The notes beneath the pieces are model-generated. The model made no database searches. It worked only from the letters and a program-made list of their open reading frames with translations, and was not told the origin of the DNA. Of a stretch of DNA of 34,919 nucleotides, positions 2,276 through 29,998 are shown piece by piece; the first letter of the stretch is position 1, and every line of letters starts with the position of its first letter. The stretch is from Burkholderiaceae bacterium. Its GTDB lineage: Bacteria > Pseudomonadota > Gammaproteobacteria > Burkholderiales > Burkholderiaceae_D. Location of the stretch: positions 1-34,919 of the forward strand of contig JAOASL010000001.1 in NCBI GenBank assembly GCA_030158675.1, read 5' to 3'. The position numbers and the translations under genes were made by a program.

Positions 2276-2959
2276 TCACCGTCCGACCCAGCCGCCGCAG
2301 ACAGGAAACACCTGTCCTACAAAGCAATCCGCGTGGGTACTGGCCAGGTAAGCGGCAAACATCGCATCCTCGCGCGCGCTCACCAAGCGTCCCAACGGCA
2401 CTTCGCGCCTTAGCCGATCCTGGAATACCGGGTTGGCCTGCACCTCTGCTGGAAAATACGTGGGGTTGTCGACGAAATTCTGCGCGATCGCATTGACCTG
2501 TATGCCCTTCCCTGCCATCTCCACACCAACCGACTGCACATACGCCAACTGTGCGCCACGCGCGGCACTGTAGGTCGATGCGCGTCGTATTCCGCGCAAT
2601 GCCGATGCGCTGCCGATCACAATCAGCTTGCCAGAGCCACGCGCGATCATCTGCGGCAGCAATGCCCGGGCCAGACGCGGAAGCGGATCAACCATGTGAG
2701 CGAATGCATGCCGCCATTCATCGTCACTGGCCTCATGTGCGGCCGTAGTGGGTGCCGGAATGCCCAGATTGGCCAGCAGCACATCGACTTGACCGACCTG
2801 CGCGACCATGCGCGCCGGATACTCCGGGTCCGCGATCGACCCCGTATCGGCGATGACTTCCGCGCCCATTTCGCGAAACACGTCGGCCAGTACCGGTCCC
2901 ATAAAATCTTCCGCCTGCGTTAGCAGCACGCGCCGCCCGTCCAGATTCAGCCCCTGCAT
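2276..2959 (-). CDS. Halohydrin dehalogenase-like SDR-fold protein
   Basis: A 227-residue protein of the short-chain dehydrogenase fold that lacks the SDR oxidoreductase hallmarks. The N-terminal loop reads T14-Q-A-E-D-F19-M-G21 in place of the glycine-rich cofactor motif, A-N-L-G replaces N-N-A-G, and the catalytic triad is Ser117, Tyr130 and Arg134 (Arg instead of Lys). These are the two published signatures of halohydrin dehalogenases: T-x4-F-x-G and S-x12-Y-x3-R. The C-terminal half (N-F-V-D-N-P-T-Y-F-P, P-L-G-R-L-V-S-A-R-E-D-A, G-Q-V-F, C-G-G-W) also resembles remembered HheB/HheC sequences. Such enzymes convert vicinal haloalcohols to epoxides plus halide and run in reverse with azide or cyanide, without NAD(P). 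Start: ATG at 2959 with AAGGAGA upstream. Automatic annotation would say SDR oxidoreductase; the substrate is unknown. Confidence 0.8.
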   Translation of the reverse strand: MQGLNLDGRRVLLTQAEDFMGPVLADVFREMGAEVIADTGSIADPEYPARMVAQVGQVDVLLANLGIPAPTTAAHEASDDEWRHAFAHMVDPLPRLARALLPQMIARGSGKLIVIGSASALRGIRRASTYSAARGAQLAYVQSVGVEMAGKGIQVNAIAQNFVDNPTYFPAEVQANPVFQDRLRREVPLGRLVSAREDAMFAAYLASTHADCFVGQVFPVCGGWVGR

Positions 2960-3051: not shown

Positions 3052-4218
3052 ATGAAGATACTGGTCGCGCATAACGCCTACCACTACCGCGGTGGCGAGG
3101 ACACGCTGGTCGATGCCGAGCTTACGATGCTGGCCGGGCAGGGTCATCAGGTTTACCTTTACCGGCGCGACAATGCCGAGCTTGCCCATATTCACCCGGC
3201 GCGGGCCGCGATCGACACAATCTGGTCCTTGCGTACCGTCGACGAGCTGCGTACCGTCGCACGGCGCTTCATGCCCGATATCATCCACGCACACAACACG
3301 TTTCCTCTGATCTCGCCATCGTTGTACGGTATTGCCCGGAGTTTGCATATTCCAGTCGTGCAGACGCTGCACAATTTTCGCCTGCTATGTCCGCAGGCGA
3401 TGCTGGTGCGTGACGGTCAGGTCTGCACCGACTGTGTCGGACGCGGGCCGTGGCGCGCTGTGCTGCATCGCTGCTACCGCGGATCCTTCGCGCAGACGGC
3501 AGTTACTGCAACCATGTTGGCGCTGCACCGGATACGAGGCAGCTGGAACCATGATGTCAGCCGCTACATCGTGCTCAACCGCACCTGTCGCGACCTGTTC
3601 GTCGCTGGGGGACTGCCACCTCGAAAACTCTGTATCAAGCCAAATTTCGTGGAGTCCAGTGGTACGCCGCAATGGGTGTGCCGTGCCGGTGGTGTCTTTA
3701 TCGGCAGACTCTCTCACGAAAAAGGGCTGGCTGTCCTGGCACGCGCACTGCACTCGCTGCCGGGAAAAACCATCGACGTGTATGGTACAGGTCCATTGCA
3801 GTCCCTGGTGGAGCGAAGCCCTGGCTTGCGCTACTGTGGTTTCCTCGCGAGTACGGCGCTGCGGCAGCGCATGCAGCAAGCCTCGTATCTGGTTATGCCG
3901 AGCACGGGCATGGAGAGCTTCGGACTGGCAGCCATCGAAGCTTTCGCTTGCGGCGTACCCGTGATCGCCAGCCAGCAGGGCGGACTGGGCGAACTCGTCA
4001 CACATAAAAAAAATGGCCTATTGGTTACTCCCGGTGACCCGACCGCGCTGGCAAGGGCAATCGCCTATGCCGACGCACACCCGCACGAGATGCGACGCAT
4101 GGGCATCGACGCATATCAGACCTGGCTCGCGCACTACACGCCCGAGCGCAATTACGAATTGCTGATGCACATCTACGATGAAGCGCTGTCCACCCTGCCC
4201 TCGACCACTTCTGCGTAA
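3052..4218 (+). CDS. Glycosyltransferase family 4 protein (first of pair)
   Basis: A 388-residue GT-B fold glycosyltransferase. The N-terminus has the usual strand and glycine loop (M-K-I-L-V-A-H-N-A-Y-H-Y-R-G-G-E-D), seen in GT4 enzymes that build exopolysaccharide or O-antigen. The C-terminal nucleotide-sugar domain shows G-V-F-I-G-R-L-S-H-E-K-G (about 218-229), then E-S-F-G-L-A-A-I-E, the E-x7-E motif of retaining GT4 enzymes, then G-V-P-V-I-A-S. Length is normal. A Cys cluster (about 117-143: C-P, C-T-D-C-V-G, R-C-Y-R) is common in this subgroup and may bind metal. It is transferred to the inner face of the membrane in known relatives, but no membrane segment is seen here. It lies 7 bases ahead of a second GT4 gene; the two probably act on the same glycan. 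Sugar and acceptor are unknown. Confidence 0.88.
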   Translation: MKILVAHNAYHYRGGEDTLVDAELTMLAGQGHQVYLYRRDNAELAHIHPARAAIDTIWSLRTVDELRTVARRFMPDIIHAHNTFPLISPSLYGIARSLHIPVVQTLHNFRLLCPQAMLVRDGQVCTDCVGRGPWRAVLHRCYRGSFAQTAVTATMLALHRIRGSWNHDVSRYIVLNRTCRDLFVAGGLPPRKLCIKPNFVESSGTPQWVCRAGGVFIGRLSHEKGLAVLARALHSLPGKTIDVYGTGPLQSLVERSPGLRYCGFLASTALRQRMQQASYLVMPSTGMESFGLAAIEAFACGVPVIASQQGGLGELVTHKKNGLLVTPGDPTALARAIAYADAHPHEMRRMGIDAYQTWLAHYTPERNYELLMHIYDEALSTLPSTTSA

Positions 4219-21557: not shown

Positions 21558-21980
21558 TCAGGCCTGCCGCGTCATCATCCGGTGCCGAATGCCGGCTTCC
21601 ATAAATTCGTCGCCCTCTTCGATGAATCCATGGCGGCGGTAAAAGTCCACTGCATGCGTTTGTGCGTGCAGTACCAGTTTGCCGTAGCCGAGTCGCTTCG
21701 CTTCAGCCAGCAAGGCGTTCAGCACGAACGAACCGATACCTTGTCCGCGTGCGGATTTGCGCACGGCCATCCGTCCGATATGACCATCAGGCAGCAGGCG
21801 GCCAGTTGCAACCGGCTGCCCTTCAGCATCGTAGGCGACCGCGTGGGTGCTGACTTCATCGCCCTCATCCCATTCAAGTTCGATCGGCACGCCCTGCTCG
21901 ACCACAAACACCTCGACGCGCAAGTCCTGCGCATGCTCACGCAGTCTGTCCCAGTCTCCGATGACGACCTGCATGCTCAT
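21558..21980 (-). CDS. GNAT family N-acetyltransferase
   Basis: A 140-residue acetyltransferase of the GNAT fold, similar to the ElaA-like group. The acetyl-CoA loop is clear: I-G-R-M-A-V-R-K-S-A-R-G-Q-G-I-G (about 67-82), followed by F-Y-R-R-H-G-F near 113-119 and the E-E-G-D-E-F end. The substrate is unknown. The reading frame is open to 22028, but ATG 21980 is preferred since it overlaps the stop of the thioesterase gene by four bases; ATG 21974 is two codons further on. It is the last gene of the catabolic operon. Confidence 0.88.
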   Translation of the reverse strand: MSMQVVIGDWDRLREHAQDLRVEVFVVEQGVPIELEWDEGDEVSTHAVAYDAEGQPVATGRLLPDGHIGRMAVRKSARGQGIGSFVLNALLAEAKRLGYGKLVLHAQTHAVDFYRRHGFIEEGDEFMEAGIRHRMMTRQA

Positions 21981-22414
21981 TGACCGATCGCTTGCCTCTG
22001 TTCGAACATAACCAGCCGTTCGCGCCACAGCGCAGGCACCGGCTCGCTTTTGCGTATATGGCTGTCGGCGTATACATAGATCATTTCGCCGGACACCAGC
22101 AGGTCGTCACCCTTGAAGATTTCGAGCACGAAGCGCATCGAGCTGCGCCCCAGATAGGCACAACGCACACCAATGTCGAGCAGGTCGTCGAAACGCGCCG
22201 GCGCGTGATACTCGATGGTCGCCTTGCGCGCAAACATCTCGAGCCCAGCCTCGGACTGCGCGATCACGTCCGGCAGTCCGGTCGCACGCCAGTACTCTGT
22301 AAAAGCAACGTCGAAATAATTCAGGTAATTGCCGTTGAAGACGATCGCCTGCATGTCCACTTCGGACCAGCGCACACGCAAGGTATGAAAAAAAGAAAAA
22401 TCCTGTCGAGCCAT
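21977..22414 (-). CDS. Acyl-CoA thioesterase, 4HBT (YbgC/FadM) type
   Basis: A 145-residue hotdog-fold thioesterase. The N-terminal signature V-R-W-S-E-V-D-M-Q-A-I-V-F-N-G-N-Y-L-N-Y-F matches the YbgC/FadM family, with the catalytic Asp in S-E-V-D. Such enzymes hydrolyse acyl-CoA to free acid and CoA; in beta-oxidation operons FadM-like ones remove dead-end intermediates. The open frame begins at a TTG (22423), but ATG 22414 (M-A-R-Q-D-F) is the better start. It lies 5 bases after the hydrolase gene and overlaps the GNAT gene. Confidence 0.86.
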   Translation of the reverse strand: MARQDFSFFHTLRVRWSEVDMQAIVFNGNYLNYFDVAFTEYWRATGLPDVIAQSEAGLEMFARKATIEYHAPARFDDLLDIGVRCAYLGRSSMRFVLEIFKGDDLLVSGEMIYVYADSHIRKSEPVPALWRERLVMFEQRQAIGQ

Positions 22415-22419
22415 GATGT

Positions 22420-23310
22420 TCAATGATTCAGAGAATCGGCAATCCAGCGATTTACCCGTGCAGGCTGCTCATGCACGATCCAGTGACTCGCATCGGGAAC
22501 GCGGGTGACGACCAGATCGTCGACAAAACGGTCCAGCGTATCCAGCAGCCCAGGCAACAGCGCCCGGTCCTGCTCACCCCACAGCACACGCACCGGCCGC
22601 AGCACACGGAAGCTCGCCGGGTCCAGCGAAAGTCCGGCCGCTCCCGGTTCGCCTGCTGTTGACGGATGGACGCGCGATGCGCGGTAATAGTTGACGCCGC
22701 CACGCAATCCGCGCGACCAGCACGCATGATAGCGGGCGCGGGTATCGGCATCGAACCAGCCAGGATTCTCGCCCATACCCAGCATCAGCCGCTCTGCAAC
22801 CCGGAAGTCATCTTTCACCAGCGCTTCCTCCGAGCCGGCGGCGCGCAACCAGTTCATGTATTGGCTGGCCGCCTGCTGCGCCGGATCTTTTGCCAGTCCT
22901 TCGGCGAACGGTACCGGATGCGTCGCATTGATGACCAGCAGCCGCTCGACCCGCTGCGGGTATTGGATGGCGAACTGCCACGCCAGCGCGCCGCCCCAGT
23001 CATGCGCGACGATGATGCAGCGCTCGTAGCCCAGGCTTTGGATCAATTGCCCGATGTCTTGAAGCAGATATTTTGCGCGATAGGCCGCTACTTCCGCAGG
23101 CTGGTCTGACAGATTGTAGCCGCGCAGATCCGGCGCGACCGCGAAATGCGTGTCACCGAAATGCGCAAGCTGTGCATGCCATGCATACCAGAACTCGGGA
23201 AATCCATGCAGAAAAAGCAGCAAGGGCTGACCCGCTTTGCCGGCGCACGCATAGTGCAAGCGCGTACCGTTCGGTAGTGCGGCGAAATGCTGATCGCTGA
23301 TCTGTGCCAT
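22420..23310 (-). CDS. Alpha/beta hydrolase, epoxide hydrolase type
   Basis: A 296-residue alpha/beta hydrolase. Oxyanion motif H-G-F-P-E-F-W is at residues 35-41, then P-D-L-R-G-Y-N-L-S-D, the nucleophile motif V-A-H-D-W-G-G with Asp104, and a late A-S-H-W catalytic His with an acid in G-E-Q-D-R. An Asp nucleophile followed by Trp is typical of soluble epoxide hydrolases and haloalkane dehalogenases. The Tyr residues of the cap domain (Y-H-A-C-W, N-Y-Y-R-A-S-R) favour epoxide hydrolase; haloalkane or fluoroacetate dehalogenase cannot be excluded. In the operon it would open an epoxide or hydrolyse a C-halogen or ester group of an intermediate. Two bases separate it from the preceding SDR gene. 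Confidence 0.86.
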   Translation of the reverse strand: MAQISDQHFAALPNGTRLHYACAGKAGQPLLLFLHGFPEFWYAWHAQLAHFGDTHFAVAPDLRGYNLSDQPAEVAAYRAKYLLQDIGQLIQSLGYERCIIVAHDWGGALAWQFAIQYPQRVERLLVINATHPVPFAEGLAKDPAQQAASQYMNWLRAAGSEEALVKDDFRVAERLMLGMGENPGWFDADTRARYHACWSRGLRGGVNYYRASRVHPSTAGEPGAAGLSLDPASFRVLRPVRVLWGEQDRALLPGLLDTLDRFVDDLVVTRVPDASHWIVHEQPARVNRWIADSLNH

Positions 23311-23312
23311 GT

Positions 23313-24215
23313 TCAGTCGCCGCGCAGTCCGGCACGCAACTTGTCGCGCACATGCGGCGCAGTTTCGTACGGATCGGCGGGATTCTGGCCGCTGAGGATG
23401 TGCTCCATTCGACGCTGTACATTGCCGAGCGCCTGAGGATGCGAATAGATGTAAAACTGCCCGCCGCGGATCGCGTCGAACGTGCGCTCCGCAACCTCTG
23501 CCGCAGTCACTTTGCCAGACGAAACCGCTTTCTCCAGCACGGCCTGTGACACCTGCTGGCTACGGGTCGGCGTCGCCCCTTGCACGTCGTCCGGGCGCAC
23601 GCGTTCGGACTGGCTTATGCCCGTCTGCACAAAATACGGGCACAGTACAGAGGCGCCGATCGGCGCCTCGACCAGCATCAGGTCATGGTAAAGCGTCTCG
23701 GATAGCGCCACCACCGCATGCTTGGAAACGTTGTATACGCCCATGGTCGGGGGCGTCAGCAGCCCGGCCATCGATGCGGTATTCACAATGTGCCCTTCAT
23801 ACGCCGGATCTTTTTTCGCGCATTCGAGCATCAGTGGCGTGAATACACGCACGCCATGAATCACGCCCCACAGGTTCACGCCCAGCACCCATTCCCAGTC
23901 GGCCTGCGTGCTTTCCCAGACGAGGCCACCGGCACCGACGCCGGCATTATTGAATACCAGATGGATTGCACCAAAGCGTTGCATTGCCGCCTGCGCCAGC
24001 GCTTCGACCTGGTCGCCCTTGCGCACATCGCAGGCCTGCGCAAGCACCTCGGCCCCCAATGCCTGCATTGCGGCGGCGGTCGCCTCCAGCGCTTCCGTCT
24101 GCACATCGGCCAACACCAGCTTCATGCCCAGCTTCGCGCCCAGCACAGCAAATTCGCGACCGAAACCGCTGGCCGCGCCGGTGATCACGGCAACCTTGCC
24201 TGTGAATGCTTTCAT
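23313..24215 (-). CDS. SDR family oxidoreductase (300 aa)
   Basis: A 300-residue classical short-chain dehydrogenase. Cofactor loop T-G-A-A-S-G-F-G (13-20), the acidic D of V-L-A-D-V-Q (favours NAD), N-N-A-G near 90-93, and the triad S ... Y-N-V-S-K (about 144-163). The C-terminus is longer than the usual 250 residues and ends with a Y-I-Y-S-H-P segment and M-E-H-I-L-S-G, as in many SDRs of lipid and terpenoid catabolism. It should oxidise a hydroxy group of an acyl-CoA or alcohol intermediate. It starts at ATG 24215 with a GAGGAAA ribosome site and lies 10 bases after the CurA-like gene. Confidence 0.9.
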   Translation of the reverse strand: MKAFTGKVAVITGAASGFGREFAVLGAKLGMKLVLADVQTEALEATAAAMQALGAEVLAQACDVRKGDQVEALAQAAMQRFGAIHLVFNNAGVGAGGLVWESTQADWEWVLGVNLWGVIHGVRVFTPLMLECAKKDPAYEGHIVNTASMAGLLTPPTMGVYNVSKHAVVALSETLYHDLMLVEAPIGASVLCPYFVQTGISQSERVRPDDVQGATPTRSQQVSQAVLEKAVSSGKVTAAEVAERTFDAIRGGQFYIYSHPQALGNVQRRMEHILSGQNPADPYETAPHVRDKLRAGLRGD

Positions 24216-24225
24216 CTCGTTTTCC

Positions 24226-25221
24226 TCAGACCAGCTTCACCAGTTGCTTGCCGAAATTTTTACCGCGCAGCATGCCGATGAAGGCGGCCGGCGCTGCCGC
24301 CAGGCCATCGGCGATCGTCTCGCGGTACTTGAGCCTGCCATCGCCGACCAGCTGCGCCAGTTCGCCGAGTCCCTGCGGCCAGAATTCCAAGTGCTCCGAT
24401 ACGATGAAACCCTGCATCGACAAACGCATCGATAACACCATGTGCAGGTAATGCACCGGCATCAGCTGACCGTCATAACCAGCGATCATCCCGCACAGCG
24501 CAATGCGTCCGAACGGATTCATGCGCGCCAGCGTTGCATCCATCACGGCACCGCCGACGTTCTCGAACAGCCCGTCGATGCCGTTCGGCGCTGCTGCCTT
24601 GAGGTCCTTGAACAGATTGCCGGCCTTATAGTCCACACAGGCGTCAAAACCCAGCTCACTGACCACGTAGTCACATTTCTGCTTGCCGCCTGCAATACCG
24701 ACCACCCGGCAACCGGCCAGCTTGGCGAGCTGACCGACCACGCTGCCGACTGCGCCACTGGCAGCCGACACCGCAATCGTCTCGCCTGCCTTCGGCCGTA
24801 TGATCTGGTTCAGCCCGTACCATGCTGTCATGCCGGGCATGCCAACGACACCCAGCCAGGCCGACAGCGGCACGCGGCTGGTATCGATTTTCTTCAGCAG
24901 ATTGCCGTCGGACAGACCGATCTCGGACCAGCCGAACATGCCGACCACCTTATCGCCGACCTGGAACTTCGGATGCTTCGACGCGATCACTTCGCCTGCG
25001 GTACCGCCGATCATGACCTCGTCCAGCGGCTGCGGCGCTGCATAGCTCTTGACGTCCTCCATGCGCATGCGCATGTACGGATCGAGCGACAGATAATGAT
25101 TACGGACCAGCAGCTGGCCATCCGCGATGTCAGGCAGCGGCACGGTCTCGAGCCGGAAATTGTCGGGCGCGATGCCGCCCTGGGGACGCGATGCAAGTAC
25201 GATGCGCTGATAGGTTGTCAT
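24226..25221 (-). CDS. NADP-dependent MDR oxidoreductase, CurA-like
   Basis: A 331-residue zinc-free medium-chain reductase of the CurA/leukotriene B4 12-hydroxydehydrogenase group. Hallmarks are the N-terminal Y-Q-R-I-V-L-A-S-R-P-Q-G, S-L-D-P-Y-M-R-M-R-M, the Rossmann motif S-A-A-S-G-A-V-G-S-V-V-G-Q-L-A-K, and F-E-N-V-G-G. These enzymes reduce the double bond of alpha,beta-unsaturated ketones or aldehydes with NADPH. A TTG at 25239 opens the frame, but ATG 25221 (M-T-T-Y-Q-R) is the true start. It follows the PaaI thioesterase by 14 bases. Confidence 0.9.
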   Translation of the reverse strand: MTTYQRIVLASRPQGGIAPDNFRLETVPLPDIADGQLLVRNHYLSLDPYMRMRMEDVKSYAAPQPLDEVMIGGTAGEVIASKHPKFQVGDKVVGMFGWSEIGLSDGNLLKKIDTSRVPLSAWLGVVGMPGMTAWYGLNQIIRPKAGETIAVSAASGAVGSVVGQLAKLAGCRVVGIAGGKQKCDYVVSELGFDACVDYKAGNLFKDLKAAAPNGIDGLFENVGGAVMDATLARMNPFGRIALCGMIAGYDGQLMPVHYLHMVLSMRLSMQGFIVSEHLEFWPQGLGELAQLVGDGRLKYRETIADGLAAAPAAFIGMLRGKNFGKQLVKLV

Positions 25222-25235
25222 AGTGGTTCCGGATA

Positions 25236-25655
25236 TCAAAGCTTGTCGACGGCGTCTGGCCGCTTCAGGTATTTAAAGGTGCCCATCGCCTTGGCGACAA
25301 GGCGATTGCCGTCATGCAGCTCGGCTTCGCAGAAGCACATCGTAGTCGAGCGATGCAAGGCAAGGCCGCTCGCGACGATGCGCGATCCGGGCGTTCCGCC
25401 CGGCTGCAGGAAACTGGTCTTCATCTCGACCGTTACACCGGCACGTGACTTCGGGTCGAGCGAACGACCCGCGAGGGACATGGCGACGTCAAGCAGCGTC
25501 ATCGCGACTCCGCCATGTGTGACCCGCCAGCTGTTCATGTGGCGCGGCTCAAGGGTCAGCGCAATCTGCGCACGACCGTTGTCCATGCCGAGGAATTCGA
25601 CGCCAAGCTCGGCCAGGAAAGGTATCGCGGTCGGGAAAGGACGGGGTTGGTCCAT
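25236..25655 (-). CDS. PaaI family thioesterase
   Basis: A 139-residue hotdog thioesterase of the PaaI/YdiI group, with H-G-G-V-A-M-T-L-L-D-V-A-M and the T-x-E-M-K-T-S-F-L-Q-P core. It hydrolyses acyl- or aryl-CoA esters and is different in family from the FadM-like enzyme further down the operon. Its ATG overlaps the stop of the SDR gene by one base (TGATG), so translation is probably coupled. Confidence 0.88.
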   Translation of the reverse strand: MDQPRPFPTAIPFLAELGVEFLGMDNGRAQIALTLEPRHMNSWRVTHGGVAMTLLDVAMSLAGRSLDPKSRAGVTVEMKTSFLQPGGTPGSRIVASGLALHRSTTMCFCEAELHDGNRLVAKAMGTFKYLKRPDAVDKL

Positions 25656-26440
25656 CAGATCAGCACCGCCGAGACACCGCCGTCAACCGCCAGCGTCTGG
25701 CCAGTGATGTGCTTGCCTGCCATTGATGCAAACAGCAGCAGTGCTCCTTTAAGATCTTCGTCATCGCCCAACCGTCGCAACGGTGAGCGTTGCGCGGCTT
25801 CCTCCCCCATGCTGTCGAGCATGCCGCGCGTCATTTTCGAAGGAAAGAAGCCGGGCGCGAGCGCATTCACGGTGATGCCGTACTGCCCCCACTCGCCGGC
25901 CAGCGTGCGGGTGAAGTTGATCACGGCCGCCTTTGACGTGTTGTAGCCTATGGTCTGCATGTGCGCCGAGCCATTGCCGGCAAGACCCGCGATCGACGCG
26001 GTATTGATAATGCGGCCGTAGCGGCGCGGGATCATCGAACGCCTCCCTATCGCCTGACACATCAGAAAGATGCTGCGCACGTTCAGGTTCATGACCTTGT
26101 CCCAGGCCTCGACCGGATGGTCTTCGGCCGGCGCGCCCCACGTAGCGCCGGCATTGTTGACCAGAATATCCACGTGTCCCAACTCGGCCAATGCATGATT
26201 GGCCAGCGCATTTATGCCTTCCTGCTCGCCGAGGTTAGCGGCAAGCGCGGATACCCGGCAGCCTCGCTGCTCGAGATGCGCGACCGCTTCATCCAGTTCA
26301 GCCTGCTTGCGTGACGAGATCATCAGCCTTGCGCCCTGCTCGCCTAAGGCCTCTGCCATTTGCAGGCCAAGCCCACGCGAGCCGCCGGTTACAAGAGCGG
26401 TGCGGCCGGTCAGGTCAAACAATTCACGGATCGTATGCAT
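25655..26440 (-). CDS. SDR family oxidoreductase (261 aa)
   Basis: A 261-residue classical short-chain dehydrogenase. Cofactor loop T-G-G-S-R-G-L-G, N-N-A-G-A-T-W-G, N-T-A-S-I-A-G and the active-site Y-N-T-S-K. The C-terminal T-G-Q-T-L-A-V-D-G-G-V is the classic FabG-like end. An R after S-S (S-S-R-K) suggests NADP preference. It may act as 3-hydroxyacyl-CoA or alcohol dehydrogenase in the operon. A GTG at 26467 opens the frame, but ATG 26440 with GAGGT upstream is used; the gap to the Dabb gene is 2 bases. Confidence 0.9.
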   Translation of the reverse strand: MHTIRELFDLTGRTALVTGGSRGLGLQMAEALGEQGARLMISSRKQAELDEAVAHLEQRGCRVSALAANLGEQEGINALANHALAELGHVDILVNNAGATWGAPAEDHPVEAWDKVMNLNVRSIFLMCQAIGRRSMIPRRYGRIINTASIAGLAGNGSAHMQTIGYNTSKAAVINFTRTLAGEWGQYGITVNALAPGFFPSKMTRGMLDSMGEEAAQRSPLRRLGDDEDLKGALLLFASMAGKHITGQTLAVDGGVSAVLI

Positions 26441-26442
26441 GC

Positions 26443-26748
26443 TCAGATTACCTCGTAGTCCATGCACTGACGCGCCGACCGCACGGCGGCGACGAAGGGC
26501 TTCAGCGCGACATGCTGCGGATGATTCTGGTAAGCGTCGAGCGCCTCGCGCGACGCAAATTCGGTGTACATGACTACGTCATAAGTGCAGTCAAGGCCGG
26601 GCTGCGCGAGTGCGACCTCCAGCTTTAGCATGCCCGGCACAATGCCCGAACAAGCGGTCAGCAGTTCTTTCATGCGAGCTGCGTTGGCGCCTTTGTCATG
26701 GCCTTCGGCATGCTCTTTCAGCTGCCACATCACGATGTGCTTGATCAT
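26443..26748 (-). CDS. Dabb (stress-response A/B barrel) protein
   Basis: A 101-residue Dabb-domain protein. The family start M-I-K-H-I-V-M-W-Q-L-K is clear, with F-A-S-R-E-A-L-D-A-Y-Q-N-H-P-Q-H-V near 66-82. Dabb proteins are dimeric alpha/beta barrels; some, such as olivetolic acid cyclase, are enzymes acting on polyketide-like intermediates, others have no known activity. Placement inside a beta-oxidation-type operon suggests a catalytic or substrate-holding role for an intermediate, but this is inference. It starts 26 bases after the acyl-CoA dehydrogenase stop. Confidence 0.88.
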   Translation of the reverse strand: MIKHIVMWQLKEHAEGHDKGANAARMKELLTACSGIVPGMLKLEVALAQPGLDCTYDVVMYTEFASREALDAYQNHPQHVALKPFVAAVRSARQCMDYEVI

Positions 26749-26774
26749 TTGCGTGGGATTTTTTCTTGTAAGGC

Positions 26775-28586
26775 TCAGAACCAGCTGTCCTGCATGTCCA
26801 GCGCCGTCGTATCCAGAGAGGCGAGCAGACTGAGCTGCGCATCCACTTTCGGCAGTTCGAAATTGAAATAATATTTGAACGCCTGCAGCTTGCCGGTATA
26901 GAAGCCAGCGTCGCCATGCGCTTCGGCTTTTGATGCCTGTGCCACCAGCGCCTGCTCCAGCCAGATCCAGCCGATGACCAGATGGCCGAAGGCTTCGAGA
27001 TAGATCGAGGCGTTGGCCAGCGTGACGTTCAGGTCCCCGGCAGCATGCAGCGCGTGGGTGACTTCAACGAGTCTGTCCCAGCGCTCGCGCAGCGCGGCTG
27101 CCTGCGGCAGCACACTCGCGCGCGCGACTGTGTCGGCCACGCGCGCTGACAGCAGCCCGAACGCCAAGCCGTCGCGCATGACGACTTTGCGTCCAAGCAG
27201 ATCCAGTCCCTGGATGCCGTGGGTACCTTCGTGAATAGGGTTCAGCCGATTGTCGCGATAGAACTGCTCGACCGCATATTCGCGCGTGTAACCATAGCCA
27301 CCGTGTACCTGTATCGCCAGACTGTTCGCTTCCAGGCACCATTGCGATGGCCATGACTTCGCGATCGGCGTCAGGATATCCAGCAGCAGCGTGGCCTGCG
27401 CGCGCTCAGCCTCGCTGCCGGCGGTCTTCTCTTCATCCACCAGGCGGGCGCAATACAGGATCAGCGCCAGCCCACCTTCGGCATATGCCTTCTGGGCCAG
27501 CAGCATTCGTTTCACATCGGTGTGCGCAACGATAGCAATCTGAGGCTGCGCCGGATCTTTGTTCTGCGGATGCCGTCCCTGCGGGCGGCTGCGCGCATAT
27601 TCCAGTGCATGCAGGTAGCCGGTATAACCGAGCATCACTGCGCCGAGTCCGACGGCGATGCGCGCTTCGTTCATCATATTGAACATCGCTGCCAGTCCCT
27701 GGTGCAGCGAACCGACCAGCCAGCCGACTGCGCCCGGCTGACCCAGTGGGCGGAGCTTGCCTTCACCGAAATTCAGCAGGCAATTGGTGGTACCACGGTA
27801 GCCCATCTTGTGATTCAGGCCCGCCAGCACGACGTCATTGCGCTCACCGAGGCTGCCATCGTCGTTGACCAGAAATTTTGGCACGACGAATAATGAGATC
27901 CCCTTCACGCCCTGAATGATCTTGCCGTCCGGGCCAGGTACTTTCGCCAGCACCAGGTGCACGATGTTGTCGGACAGATCGTGTTCGCCGCCGGAGATCC
28001 ACATCTTGTTGCCACGCAGCCGGTAGCTACCATCTGACTGCGCTTCGGCCCGGGTGGTGATGTCGGACAGGCTCGAACCTGCCTGCGGCTCGGACAGGCA
28101 CATCGTGCCAAGAAAACGGCCCGACAGCAGTGGACGAACGTATTTGTCGATCTGCTCCGGGTTACCGCATTTCAGTAAAGTGTTTGCATTGCCGATGGTG
28201 AGCATCGGGTAGGCGGCAGTCGCAACGTTGGCGCCCTTGAACCAGGCAAAGCCGGCCTTCTCGATCAGACAGGGCAATTGCATGCCGCCGAGCTCTGCAT
28301 CATGCCCGGCCGCCATCAGCCCCGCGTCGCTGAATGCCTGCAGCGCTTCGCGAATTTCAGGTAGGACAGTCACGCGCTCGCCGTCAAACTGCGGCTCGTG
28401 TTCATCGGACTTGCGGTTGTGGTTTGCGAACTTCTCGGTGGCGATCTGCTCACACAGGTCGAGCACGGCATCGAAAGTCTCACGCCCGTGCTCGGCGAAG
28501 CGCGTACGGCTACAGAGTGACTCGGCGTCGAGCCACTCGTACAAAAGGAAGTCGAGGTCGCGCCGCGACAGGATCAGCGAAGCCAT
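26775..28586 (-). CDS. Acyl-CoA dehydrogenase, long (about 600 aa) type
   Basis: A 603-residue flavin acyl-CoA dehydrogenase of the long form with an additional C-terminal domain, related to those of Pseudomonas and Burkholderiales beta-oxidation. FAD region: M-C-L-S-E-P-Q-A-G-S-S-L-S-D, then K-M-W-I-S-G-G-E-H, Q-V-H-G-G-Y-G-Y-T, and the catalytic-Glu segment H-E-G-T-H-G-I-Q-G-L-D-L-L-G-R-K. It forms the 2,3-double bond of an acyl-CoA. The open frame continues to 28670 inside the thiolase; ATG 28586 (M-A-S-L-I-L-S-R-R-D-L-D-F-L) is chosen because family similarity starts there. It is 19 bases after the thiolase. Confidence 0.93.
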   Translation of the reverse strand: MASLILSRRDLDFLLYEWLDAESLCSRTRFAEHGRETFDAVLDLCEQIATEKFANHNRKSDEHEPQFDGERVTVLPEIREALQAFSDAGLMAAGHDAELGGMQLPCLIEKAGFAWFKGANVATAAYPMLTIGNANTLLKCGNPEQIDKYVRPLLSGRFLGTMCLSEPQAGSSLSDITTRAEAQSDGSYRLRGNKMWISGGEHDLSDNIVHLVLAKVPGPDGKIIQGVKGISLFVVPKFLVNDDGSLGERNDVVLAGLNHKMGYRGTTNCLLNFGEGKLRPLGQPGAVGWLVGSLHQGLAAMFNMMNEARIAVGLGAVMLGYTGYLHALEYARSRPQGRHPQNKDPAQPQIAIVAHTDVKRMLLAQKAYAEGGLALILYCARLVDEEKTAGSEAERAQATLLLDILTPIAKSWPSQWCLEANSLAIQVHGGYGYTREYAVEQFYRDNRLNPIHEGTHGIQGLDLLGRKVVMRDGLAFGLLSARVADTVARASVLPQAAALRERWDRLVEVTHALHAAGDLNVTLANASIYLEAFGHLVIGWIWLEQALVAQASKAEAHGDAGFYTGKLQAFKYYFNFELPKVDAQLSLLASLDTTALDMQDSWF

Positions 28587-28605
28587 CCGGTGCTGCCCGG
28601 CAGGA

Positions 28606-29784
28606 TCAAACGACTTCGAACAGACCCGCTGCGCCTTGCCCGCCGCCGATGCACATGGTGACGACGACATACTTGACGCCGCGACGCTTGCCTTCGATCA
28701 GCGCATGGCCCGTCAGGCGTGCGCCCGACATGCCATACGGGTGGCCGAGCGCGATCGCGCCGCCGTCCACATTGAGCCGGTCCATTGGTATGCCGAGCTT
28801 GTCGGCGCAATACAGTACCTGCACCGCAAACGCTTCATTCAGCTCCCATAGCCCGATGTCTTCTATCTTCACACCGGTCTGTTTCAGCAACTTCGGAATC
28901 GCGAACACCGGGCCGATGCCCATTTCGTCCGGCTCACAACCGGCGATCGCAAAGCCGCGGAAGATGCCGAGCGGCTTCTTGCCAGATGCGGCGGCTGCCT
29001 TGTCGCTCATCACGATAGCGACCGACGCACCATCGGAGAACTGACTCGCATTGCCAGCAGCGACCACGCCGCCAGGCATCGCGGTACGAATCTGCGACAC
29101 CGCCTCGTAGGTGGTGTCGGCGCGAATACCCTCATCGGCGGAGACCGTGACTTCGCGCGTGACGATTTGCGCCGTATCCTTGTCGGCGACGGCCATGGTG
29201 GTCGTTACCGCAACGATTTCGTCGGCAAATCTGCCTGCGTCCCGCGCTGCGGCGGCACGCAGCTGGCTCTGTACGCCATACTGGTCCTGCCGGTCACGCG
29301 GAATGTTGTAGCGCTTCGCGACGTTTTCAGCCGTCTGCAGCATCGGCCAGTAAATTTCGGGCTTGTTCTTCTCAAGCCAGGGATCCTTGAACATGTGCAT
29401 GTTCATTTCGTTTTGCACACAGGAGATCGACTCGACGCCGCCGGCTGCATAAATATCGCCCTCGCCGGCGATGATGCGTTGTGCAGCACTGGCAATGGTC
29501 TGCAGGCCGGAGGAGCAAAAACGGTTGATCGTGATGCCACCGGTGGATACAGGGCAGCCAGCCCGAAGCGCTACCTGACGCGCTATGTTCCAGCCTGTCG
29601 CGCCTTCCGGATTGGCGCAGCCCATCATCACATCTTCGACCTGTGAAGCATCAATGCCGGCTCGCTCTATCGCTGCCTTGAGCGCCGCCCCGCCCAGCGC
29701 AGCGCCGTGCGTCATGTTGAACGACCCCTTCCACGATTTGGCCAGCGGGGTTCGGGCTGTCGAAACAATGACGGCATCGGTCAT
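28606..29784 (-). CDS. Acetyl-CoA C-acyltransferase (thiolase)
   Basis: A 392-residue thiolase, first gene of the ten-gene operon. Nucleophilic Cys in N-R-F-C-S-S-G-L-Q (about 86-94), [10 protein letters not shown] with the base His, and [10 protein letters not shown] near the end with the second Cys. It cleaves 3-oxoacyl-CoA to acetyl-CoA plus the shortened acyl-CoA (FadA type), or works in reverse. The frame is open to 29841; ATG 29784 ([13 protein letters not shown]) is certain from the family start and AGGAGA upstream. Confidence 0.94.
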
Positions 29785-29998
29785 GTGAGGTCTCCTGTAA
29801 TTTTCATAGCGGTCTTGCCAGATTGCGAGCCGATGGAGCATAGCATATGCGTTCGCACGACCGTGCTATTTTGCCGACTCGCCGTAAGTTTTTGTAAGTT
29901 TTTAGCAAGGGATGCGTAAGTTTTCAAACCTACACTCGCGTCGATTGCGGCAATTCCACGCCCAATAATTAGAGTAAATAAATAACCAAGGAGACACC
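29785..29998. promoter_or_regulatory. Divergent control region with three GTAAGTTTT repeats
   Basis: These 214 bases separate the thiolase operon (reverse) from the MFS gene (forward). Three copies of GTAAGTTTT in the same direction begin at 29884, 29894 and 29916, that is, 10 and 22 bases apart, near one and two helical turns. Such phased direct repeats suggest cooperative binding of a regulator that acts on both promoters. I could not assign -35/-10 boxes. AAGGAG at 29989-29994 is the ribosome site of the MFS gene. Confidence 0.5.

Follow-up and report, generated by a model that had tools for sequence, protein, structure and literature searches.

A predicted D-type halohydrin dehalogenase gene in a Burkholderiaceae bacterium and its possible pairing with an epoxide hydrolase

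The dehalogenase gene and its motifs

The window analyzed here, a stretch of 34,919 nucleotides from contig JAOASL010000001.1 of a Burkholderiaceae bacterium (GCA_030158675.1), contains on its minus strand a gene (2276..2959) predicted to encode a D-type halohydrin dehalogenase (HheD). The gene shows an ATG start and a stop codon within these coordinates and encodes a protein of 227 amino acid residues. The initial annotation was silent on the strand; the frame is open on the minus strand, and stops interrupt the same frame on the plus strand. The dehalogenase gene stands alone. It is divergent from a glycosyltransferase gene (3052-4218) and convergent with a C39-peptidase/TPR gene (958-1956), and a small ORF of 56 amino acid residues with two CxxCxGxG motifs (2054-2224) is found just downstream, also on the minus strand.

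According to passages of PMC4989007 and PMC11976700, halohydrin dehalogenases are diagnosed by the pair of motifs T-x4-F/Y-x-G and S-x12-Y-x3-R. Translation of the ORF and comparison with the published motifs locates both of them where the initial annotation had placed them: T14-x4-F19-x-G21, related to the halide/nucleophile pocket, in codons 14-21 (2897..2920, minus), and S117-x12-Y130-x3-R134, which contains the catalytic triad, in codons 117-134 (2558..2611, minus). The glycine-rich cofactor loop, the NNAG motif and the catalytic Lys of SDRs are missing from the protein, as had also been claimed: a pattern search found neither [TS][GA]xxx[GA]x[GA] within its first 60 residues nor N[NG]AG or S-x10-14-Y-x3-K. 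The same patterns were applied to nine classical SDRs of the same genome (seven from 20 SDR-like matches and two located in the window), and the glycine loop was found in 9/9, N[NG]AG in 7/9 and the S-Y-K pattern in 8/9. None of the nine shows S-x12-Y-x3-R or has motif 1 within the first 60 residues; in one of them (L006) the motif 1 pattern is present elsewhere in the chain.

When the window protein was shuffled 200,000 times, 94 of the shuffled sequences had both motifs; among 81 homologues, counting the window and 80 loci, 79 keep the pair. Furthermore, S117, Y130 and R134 are invariant across 30 aligned rows, the window row included. The two exceptions, L018 (2938-3618) and L026 (8001-8672), are D-type homologues in which the Thr of motif 1 is replaced by Ile and Leu, respectively; PMC11976700, in the portion consulted, mentions natural variants at this position.

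Assignment to subtype D

A search against proteins of solved structure gave as best matches 7b73 (E 1.2e-97), 8xxb (E 1.6e-84) and HheB (4zd6, E 1.8e-48). Further dehalogenases are found from E 2.5e-26 on, interspersed with classical SDRs, the first of which is 1x7g (E 8e-21). The 7b73 chain is HheD2 (PMC9629495, in part), 8xxb is, according to its title in the PDB fold search, a triple mutant of HheD8, and the HheD12 enzyme of Pseudomonas (Halopseudomonas) pelagia CL-AP6, described in passages of PMC6922532, corresponds to our locus L078. Sequence identities of the window protein were 67.9% to HheD12 (152/224), 66.7% to HheD2 (146/219) and 58.5% to the HheD8 mutant (131/224), and both motifs are shared with HheD12 and HheD2. 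Identity to HheB was 43.4% (95/219), also with both motifs, although motif 1 of HheB has Tyr where the window protein has Phe. With 6a41 (59/169) and the HheC variant 3zn2 (54/168, about 32%), the alignments are limited to the C-terminal three quarters.

The tertiary structure was modeled with AlphaFold from 30 aligned sequences, with a mean pLDDT of 84.1 and a pTM of 0.82; the model is weak at residues 162-168, 188-191 and 221-227. In the PDB fold search, ranks 1-9 are chains of HheD2, HheD8 and HheB, and FabG-type SDRs come next. The first rank corresponds to HheD2 (Foldseek, TM 0.91), which shows a similar fold, although it has another source, the window model is uncertain in the loops 162-168 and 188-191, and the activity of the window protein is predicted.

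A phylogenetic tree was built with 44 rows: 29 of the 80 loci, the window protein, five references and the nine SDRs of the same genome. Its bootstrap is not fully settled, the HheC variant and 6a41 are partial, and the references do not include HheA, HheE, HheF and HheG. The tree splits the dehalogenases from the nine SDRs with a support of 100/98, whereas the initial annotation had named placement among classical SDRs as the result that would speak against its reading. The window protein is located amid the D type, in a cluster of seven rows (100/99) together with rows of Oxalobacteraceae and Burkholderiaceae. HheB is placed next to L087 within the D rows, its branch being long, and the tree therefore leaves the border between types D and B undrawn near HheB. 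According to passages of PMC4989007 identity between subtypes is below 30%, a figure that the 43.4% between the window protein and HheB exceeds.

Motifs, solved-structure matches, fold search and tree thus agree with the halohydrin dehalogenase reading of the initial annotation, and the sequence comparisons indicate that the product is very probably a cofactor-independent HheD, an ordinary member of a known subtype. That it is instead a classical SDR oxidoreductase, with two short motifs misread, is hardly credible. The family names do point that way: Pfam gives SDR-type families only (PF13561, FabG-like), the 25 NCBIfam matches listed of 192 carry reductase or dehydrogenase names, and 19 further SDR-like matches, 25-30% identical, are found in the genome. 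However, those 25 matches lie far under their cut-offs (the best one scores 94 against 222 bits), the nearest solved chains are dehalogenases, and the window protein is split from the SDRs of its own genome, 9/9 of which have the TGxxxGxG-type loop that it lacks along with NNAG and the Lys of Y-x3-K; the classical SDR reading was rejected on these grounds. The same family names bear out the expectation that database annotation would hide this gene as an SDR oxidoreductase, and the depositors of 7b73 and 8xxb also called their molecules SDRs.

The suggestion that the protein may be a new subtype did not hold, and we consider it highly improbable. The lineage of the window forms a supported cluster of its own inside D, and the positions lining the substrate vary, the window protein having I124 and A127 at positions 124 and 127, which are changed in the HheD8 mutant. 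Nevertheless, the protein is 59-68% identical to named D members, within the range of 57-95% that PMC4989007, in the part consulted, gives for HheD19-HheD38 against verified D enzymes, and identity and tree together led us to reject a new subtype. Subtype D has solved structures (7b73, 8xxb), and passages of PMC4989007 describe HheD through HheD6 as experimentally verified. The earlier statement that few enzymes of the family are characterized is out of date, since the same source credits a 2014 study with 37 halohydrin dehalogenase genes found and 19 enzymes confirmed.

As an HheD, the protein combines a predicted SDR fold with the Ser117-Tyr130-Arg134 triad and, where SDRs have the NAD(P) loop, a halide-pocket motif. 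By analogy with the mechanism known for the family (passages of PMC4989007), Tyr130, activated by Arg134, would deprotonate the hydroxyl of a vicinal haloalcohol, with Ser117 assisting by orienting the substrate. The freed oxygen would then displace the halide to give an epoxide, and the leaving halide would be accommodated in a pocket that residues 14-21 line, at the place where SDRs bind nicotinamide. The reaction is expected to be reversible, and other small anions could open epoxides.

Gene neighbourhood and distribution

Of 380 pattern matches in the GTDB species set, 340 code for a relative (E <= 1e-3). The loci studied are the best 80 of these 340, 66-80% identical to the window protein, and describe that set rather than the D-type share among the other 260. 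Neighbouring genes of the 80 loci and the window were called with a home-made gene caller and clustered; the caller found the dehalogenase in 80/81 regions and missed it in L029. Apart from the dehalogenase, no listed gene cluster spans more than 11 of the 81 regions, and a conserved operon partner was thus not found among them. The divergent glycosyltransferase is common to the window and 10/80 loci. The CxxCxGxG ORF was rejected as a partner because, by its pattern, it stands beside the dehalogenase in 2/81 regions (the window and L016). Same-strand neighbours of at least 100 amino acid residues within 200 bp were present upstream in 41/78 and downstream in 35/78 regions, with scattered Pfam families. 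Abhydrolase_1 was found in 10/76 of these neighbours, seven of which are, by gene clustering, hydrolases of a Halopseudomonas type described below. In L034, the upstream neighbour of a D-type dehalogenase (175-561) matches Pfam FlK, fluoroacetyl-CoA thioesterase (E 6.9e-26).

The seven Halopseudomonas-type loci are L053 (named Pseudomonas neustonica), L061, L069, L072, L078, L079 and L085. All of them (7/7) show a homologous alpha/beta hydrolase gene on the same strand directly upstream of the dehalogenase, at a distance of -3 to 70 bp. In L078 the nearest solved structure of this hydrolase is EphA (5cw2, E 5.9e-80), followed by mammalian soluble epoxide hydrolases; the EphA/sEH-like character of the upstream hydrolases rests on this one of the seven loci. 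HheD12 therefore differs from the window, which has the divergent glycosyltransferase where L078 has the epoxide-hydrolase-like gene. A further homologous same-strand gene lies directly after the dehalogenase in 4/7 loci (L053 8705-9421, L069 8615-9409, L079 8603-9415 and L085 8615-9409), and a fifth copy is found in L061 (9645-10352), about 1 kb from the dehalogenase; with the limits applied, neither Pfam nor NCBIfam matched the L085 copy. According to passages of PMC4989007, only two known dehalogenase genes share an operon with one for an epoxide hydrolase, and these may include the Halopseudomonas pair. One such operon, with genes for HheC and an epoxide hydrolase, is that of Agrobacterium radiobacter (PMC11976700, in part).

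Dehalogenase genes were counted at E <= 1e-60 in genomes of the genus, family and order. In the genus of the window the gene is near-core, with 18/21 genomes and 13/14 of those of good quality, while its distribution is patchy in the family sample (16/116) and in the order sample (26/399). A search of 72,556 plasmid records (E <= 1e-20) gave a single match, of 43% identity, and a plasmid-borne xenobiotic gene was rejected on the basis of this one distant match. Because the gene is near-core in the genus, has one plasmid match and shares its divergent glycosyltransferase neighbour, it looks chromosomal and inherited in place in this lineage, unlike a recently acquired pollutant-degradation gene.

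Epoxide hydrolase and a putative two-enzyme route

The window contains a second gene of interest, which encodes an alpha/beta hydrolase of 296 amino acid residues on the minus strand (22420..23310). It is epoxide-hydrolase-like according to Abhydrolase_1 and to its nearest solved structures, 4o08 and 4nzz, both entitled 'soluble epoxide hydrolase' (4o08 E 2.1e-59). NCBIfam gave it no epoxide hydrolase model; the models that it matched, haloalkane dehalogenase among them, scored weakly and far under their cut-offs. The two genes lie about 19 kb apart and do not form an operon. The hydrolase belongs to a same-strand, beta-oxidation-like gene row (21558-29841) with the following order: a 156-aa gene, which we take to be acetyltransferase-like, a hotdog thioesterase, the epoxide-hydrolase-like gene, an SDR (PRK06194), a CurA-like reductase, another hotdog thioesterase, an SDR, an acyl-CoA dehydrogenase with a C-terminal domain and a thiolase (PRK07108).

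Conservation of this row was studied in 20 epoxide hydrolase regions of other genomes, hand-picked among the hydrolase matches. Most of the row is kept in 9/20 (L133-L140 and L152, with L139 cut by the contig end) and is not kept in 11/20 (L141-L151, two of which show weak SDR matches and two are cut short). The patterns HGxP[ED] and [GA]HD[WH]G are present in 20/20 of the hydrolases, and [GAS]H[WF], tried for the catalytic His, in 12/20. For L144 and L149, two of the more distant hydrolases, all matches with E below 1e-30 (six chains each) are named epoxide hydrolase.

The window-type hydrolase accompanies the dehalogenase across genomes, in counts where matches at E <= 1e-50 may include paralogues. 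In the family sample, own genome included, it was found in 16/16 dehalogenase-positive against 25/100 negative genomes, and in the order sample in 19/26 against 29/373 (odds ratio 32), or 18/25 against 29/373 when the own genome is left out. Counted by genus, the order gave 10/12 against 14/147 (p 5e-8). The order searches scored the best few first-look candidates per genome (five for the hydrolase and the SDR, seven for the dehalogenase, two for PLD-VTT), so the order-sample negatives are soft. Fisher p values overstate the link, since the genomes are related and kinship is ignored. No association is seen within the own genus, where 12 genomes have both genes, six the dehalogenase only, two the hydrolase only and one neither; in 5/12 of the genomes with both, the two genes are on one contig, 12-20 kb apart.

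Three controls were included. An unrelated gene of the window, PLD-VTT, was found in 2/26 against 24/373 genomes, and in 1/25 of the positives without the own genome. The SDR beside the hydrolase was almost as strong as the hydrolase itself (21/26 against 65/373). The hydrolase link persists among SDR-positive genomes (18/21 against 22/65) and is not significant among SDR-negative ones (1/5 against 7/308, p 0.12). Another alpha/beta hydrolase encoded in the genome (L090 1006-1959, contig C40), which presumably resembles haloacetate dehalogenases, showed a weak link in the family sample (9/16 against 25/100, p 0.015). Since this second hydrolase and the neighbouring SDR co-occur with the dehalogenase too, general catabolic breadth explains part of the link. 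The pairing of an epoxide hydrolase with the dehalogenase is a correlation between gene contents, and we regard it as possible, at somewhat less than even likelihood.

Our best guess at the physiology, much less sure than the D-type identity, is a route from haloalcohol to epoxide to diol, in which the epoxide product or substrate of the dehalogenase would be handled jointly with an epoxide hydrolase whose gene lies at another place in the genome; the window hydrolase (22420..23310) is the candidate second enzyme. HheC of A. radiobacter, for which equal chemistry is expected, offers a precedent for the route in its epoxide hydrolase operon (passages of PMC11976700), although over the part aligned it is about 32% identical (variant 3zn2) and the two window genes are 19 kb apart. 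Alternatively, a true HheD might in the cell serve not to dehalogenate but to open or form epoxides with another anion in ordinary metabolism, unlinked to epoxide hydrolase. We consider this rather unlikely: family members accept a range of anions (PMC4989007, in part), the gene has no widely conserved neighbour and the association is absent within the own genus, but co-occurrence across the order and the family, together with the Halopseudomonas gene pair, speaks against it. Among the titles and abstract beginnings searched, we found no open-licence paper treating co-occurrence of D-type enzymes with epoxide hydrolase.

Returning to the haloalcohol-epoxide-diol route, a broader proposal, speculative and in our judgment doubtful, is that D-type enzymes do not serve xenobiotic degradation but supply one of the two enzymes of a natural route, the other being an epoxide hydrolase, and that this route is widespread with its genes mostly unlinked. 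Such a route might process a natural halohydrin or epoxide, perhaps one derived from lipids or terpenoids, and be tied, in part of the window's family, to a beta-oxidation-like row. The initial annotation had called the natural substrate unknown, and our literature search likewise found no assignment; PMC4989007, in the part consulted, leaves the natural role of halohydrin dehalogenases open. Taken alone, the enzyme is one more sequence in a subtype already known. Its possible import lies in that natural role, for which the order-wide co-occurrence, the near-core status in the genus and the adjacent Halopseudomonas pair offer a concrete, testable pairing.
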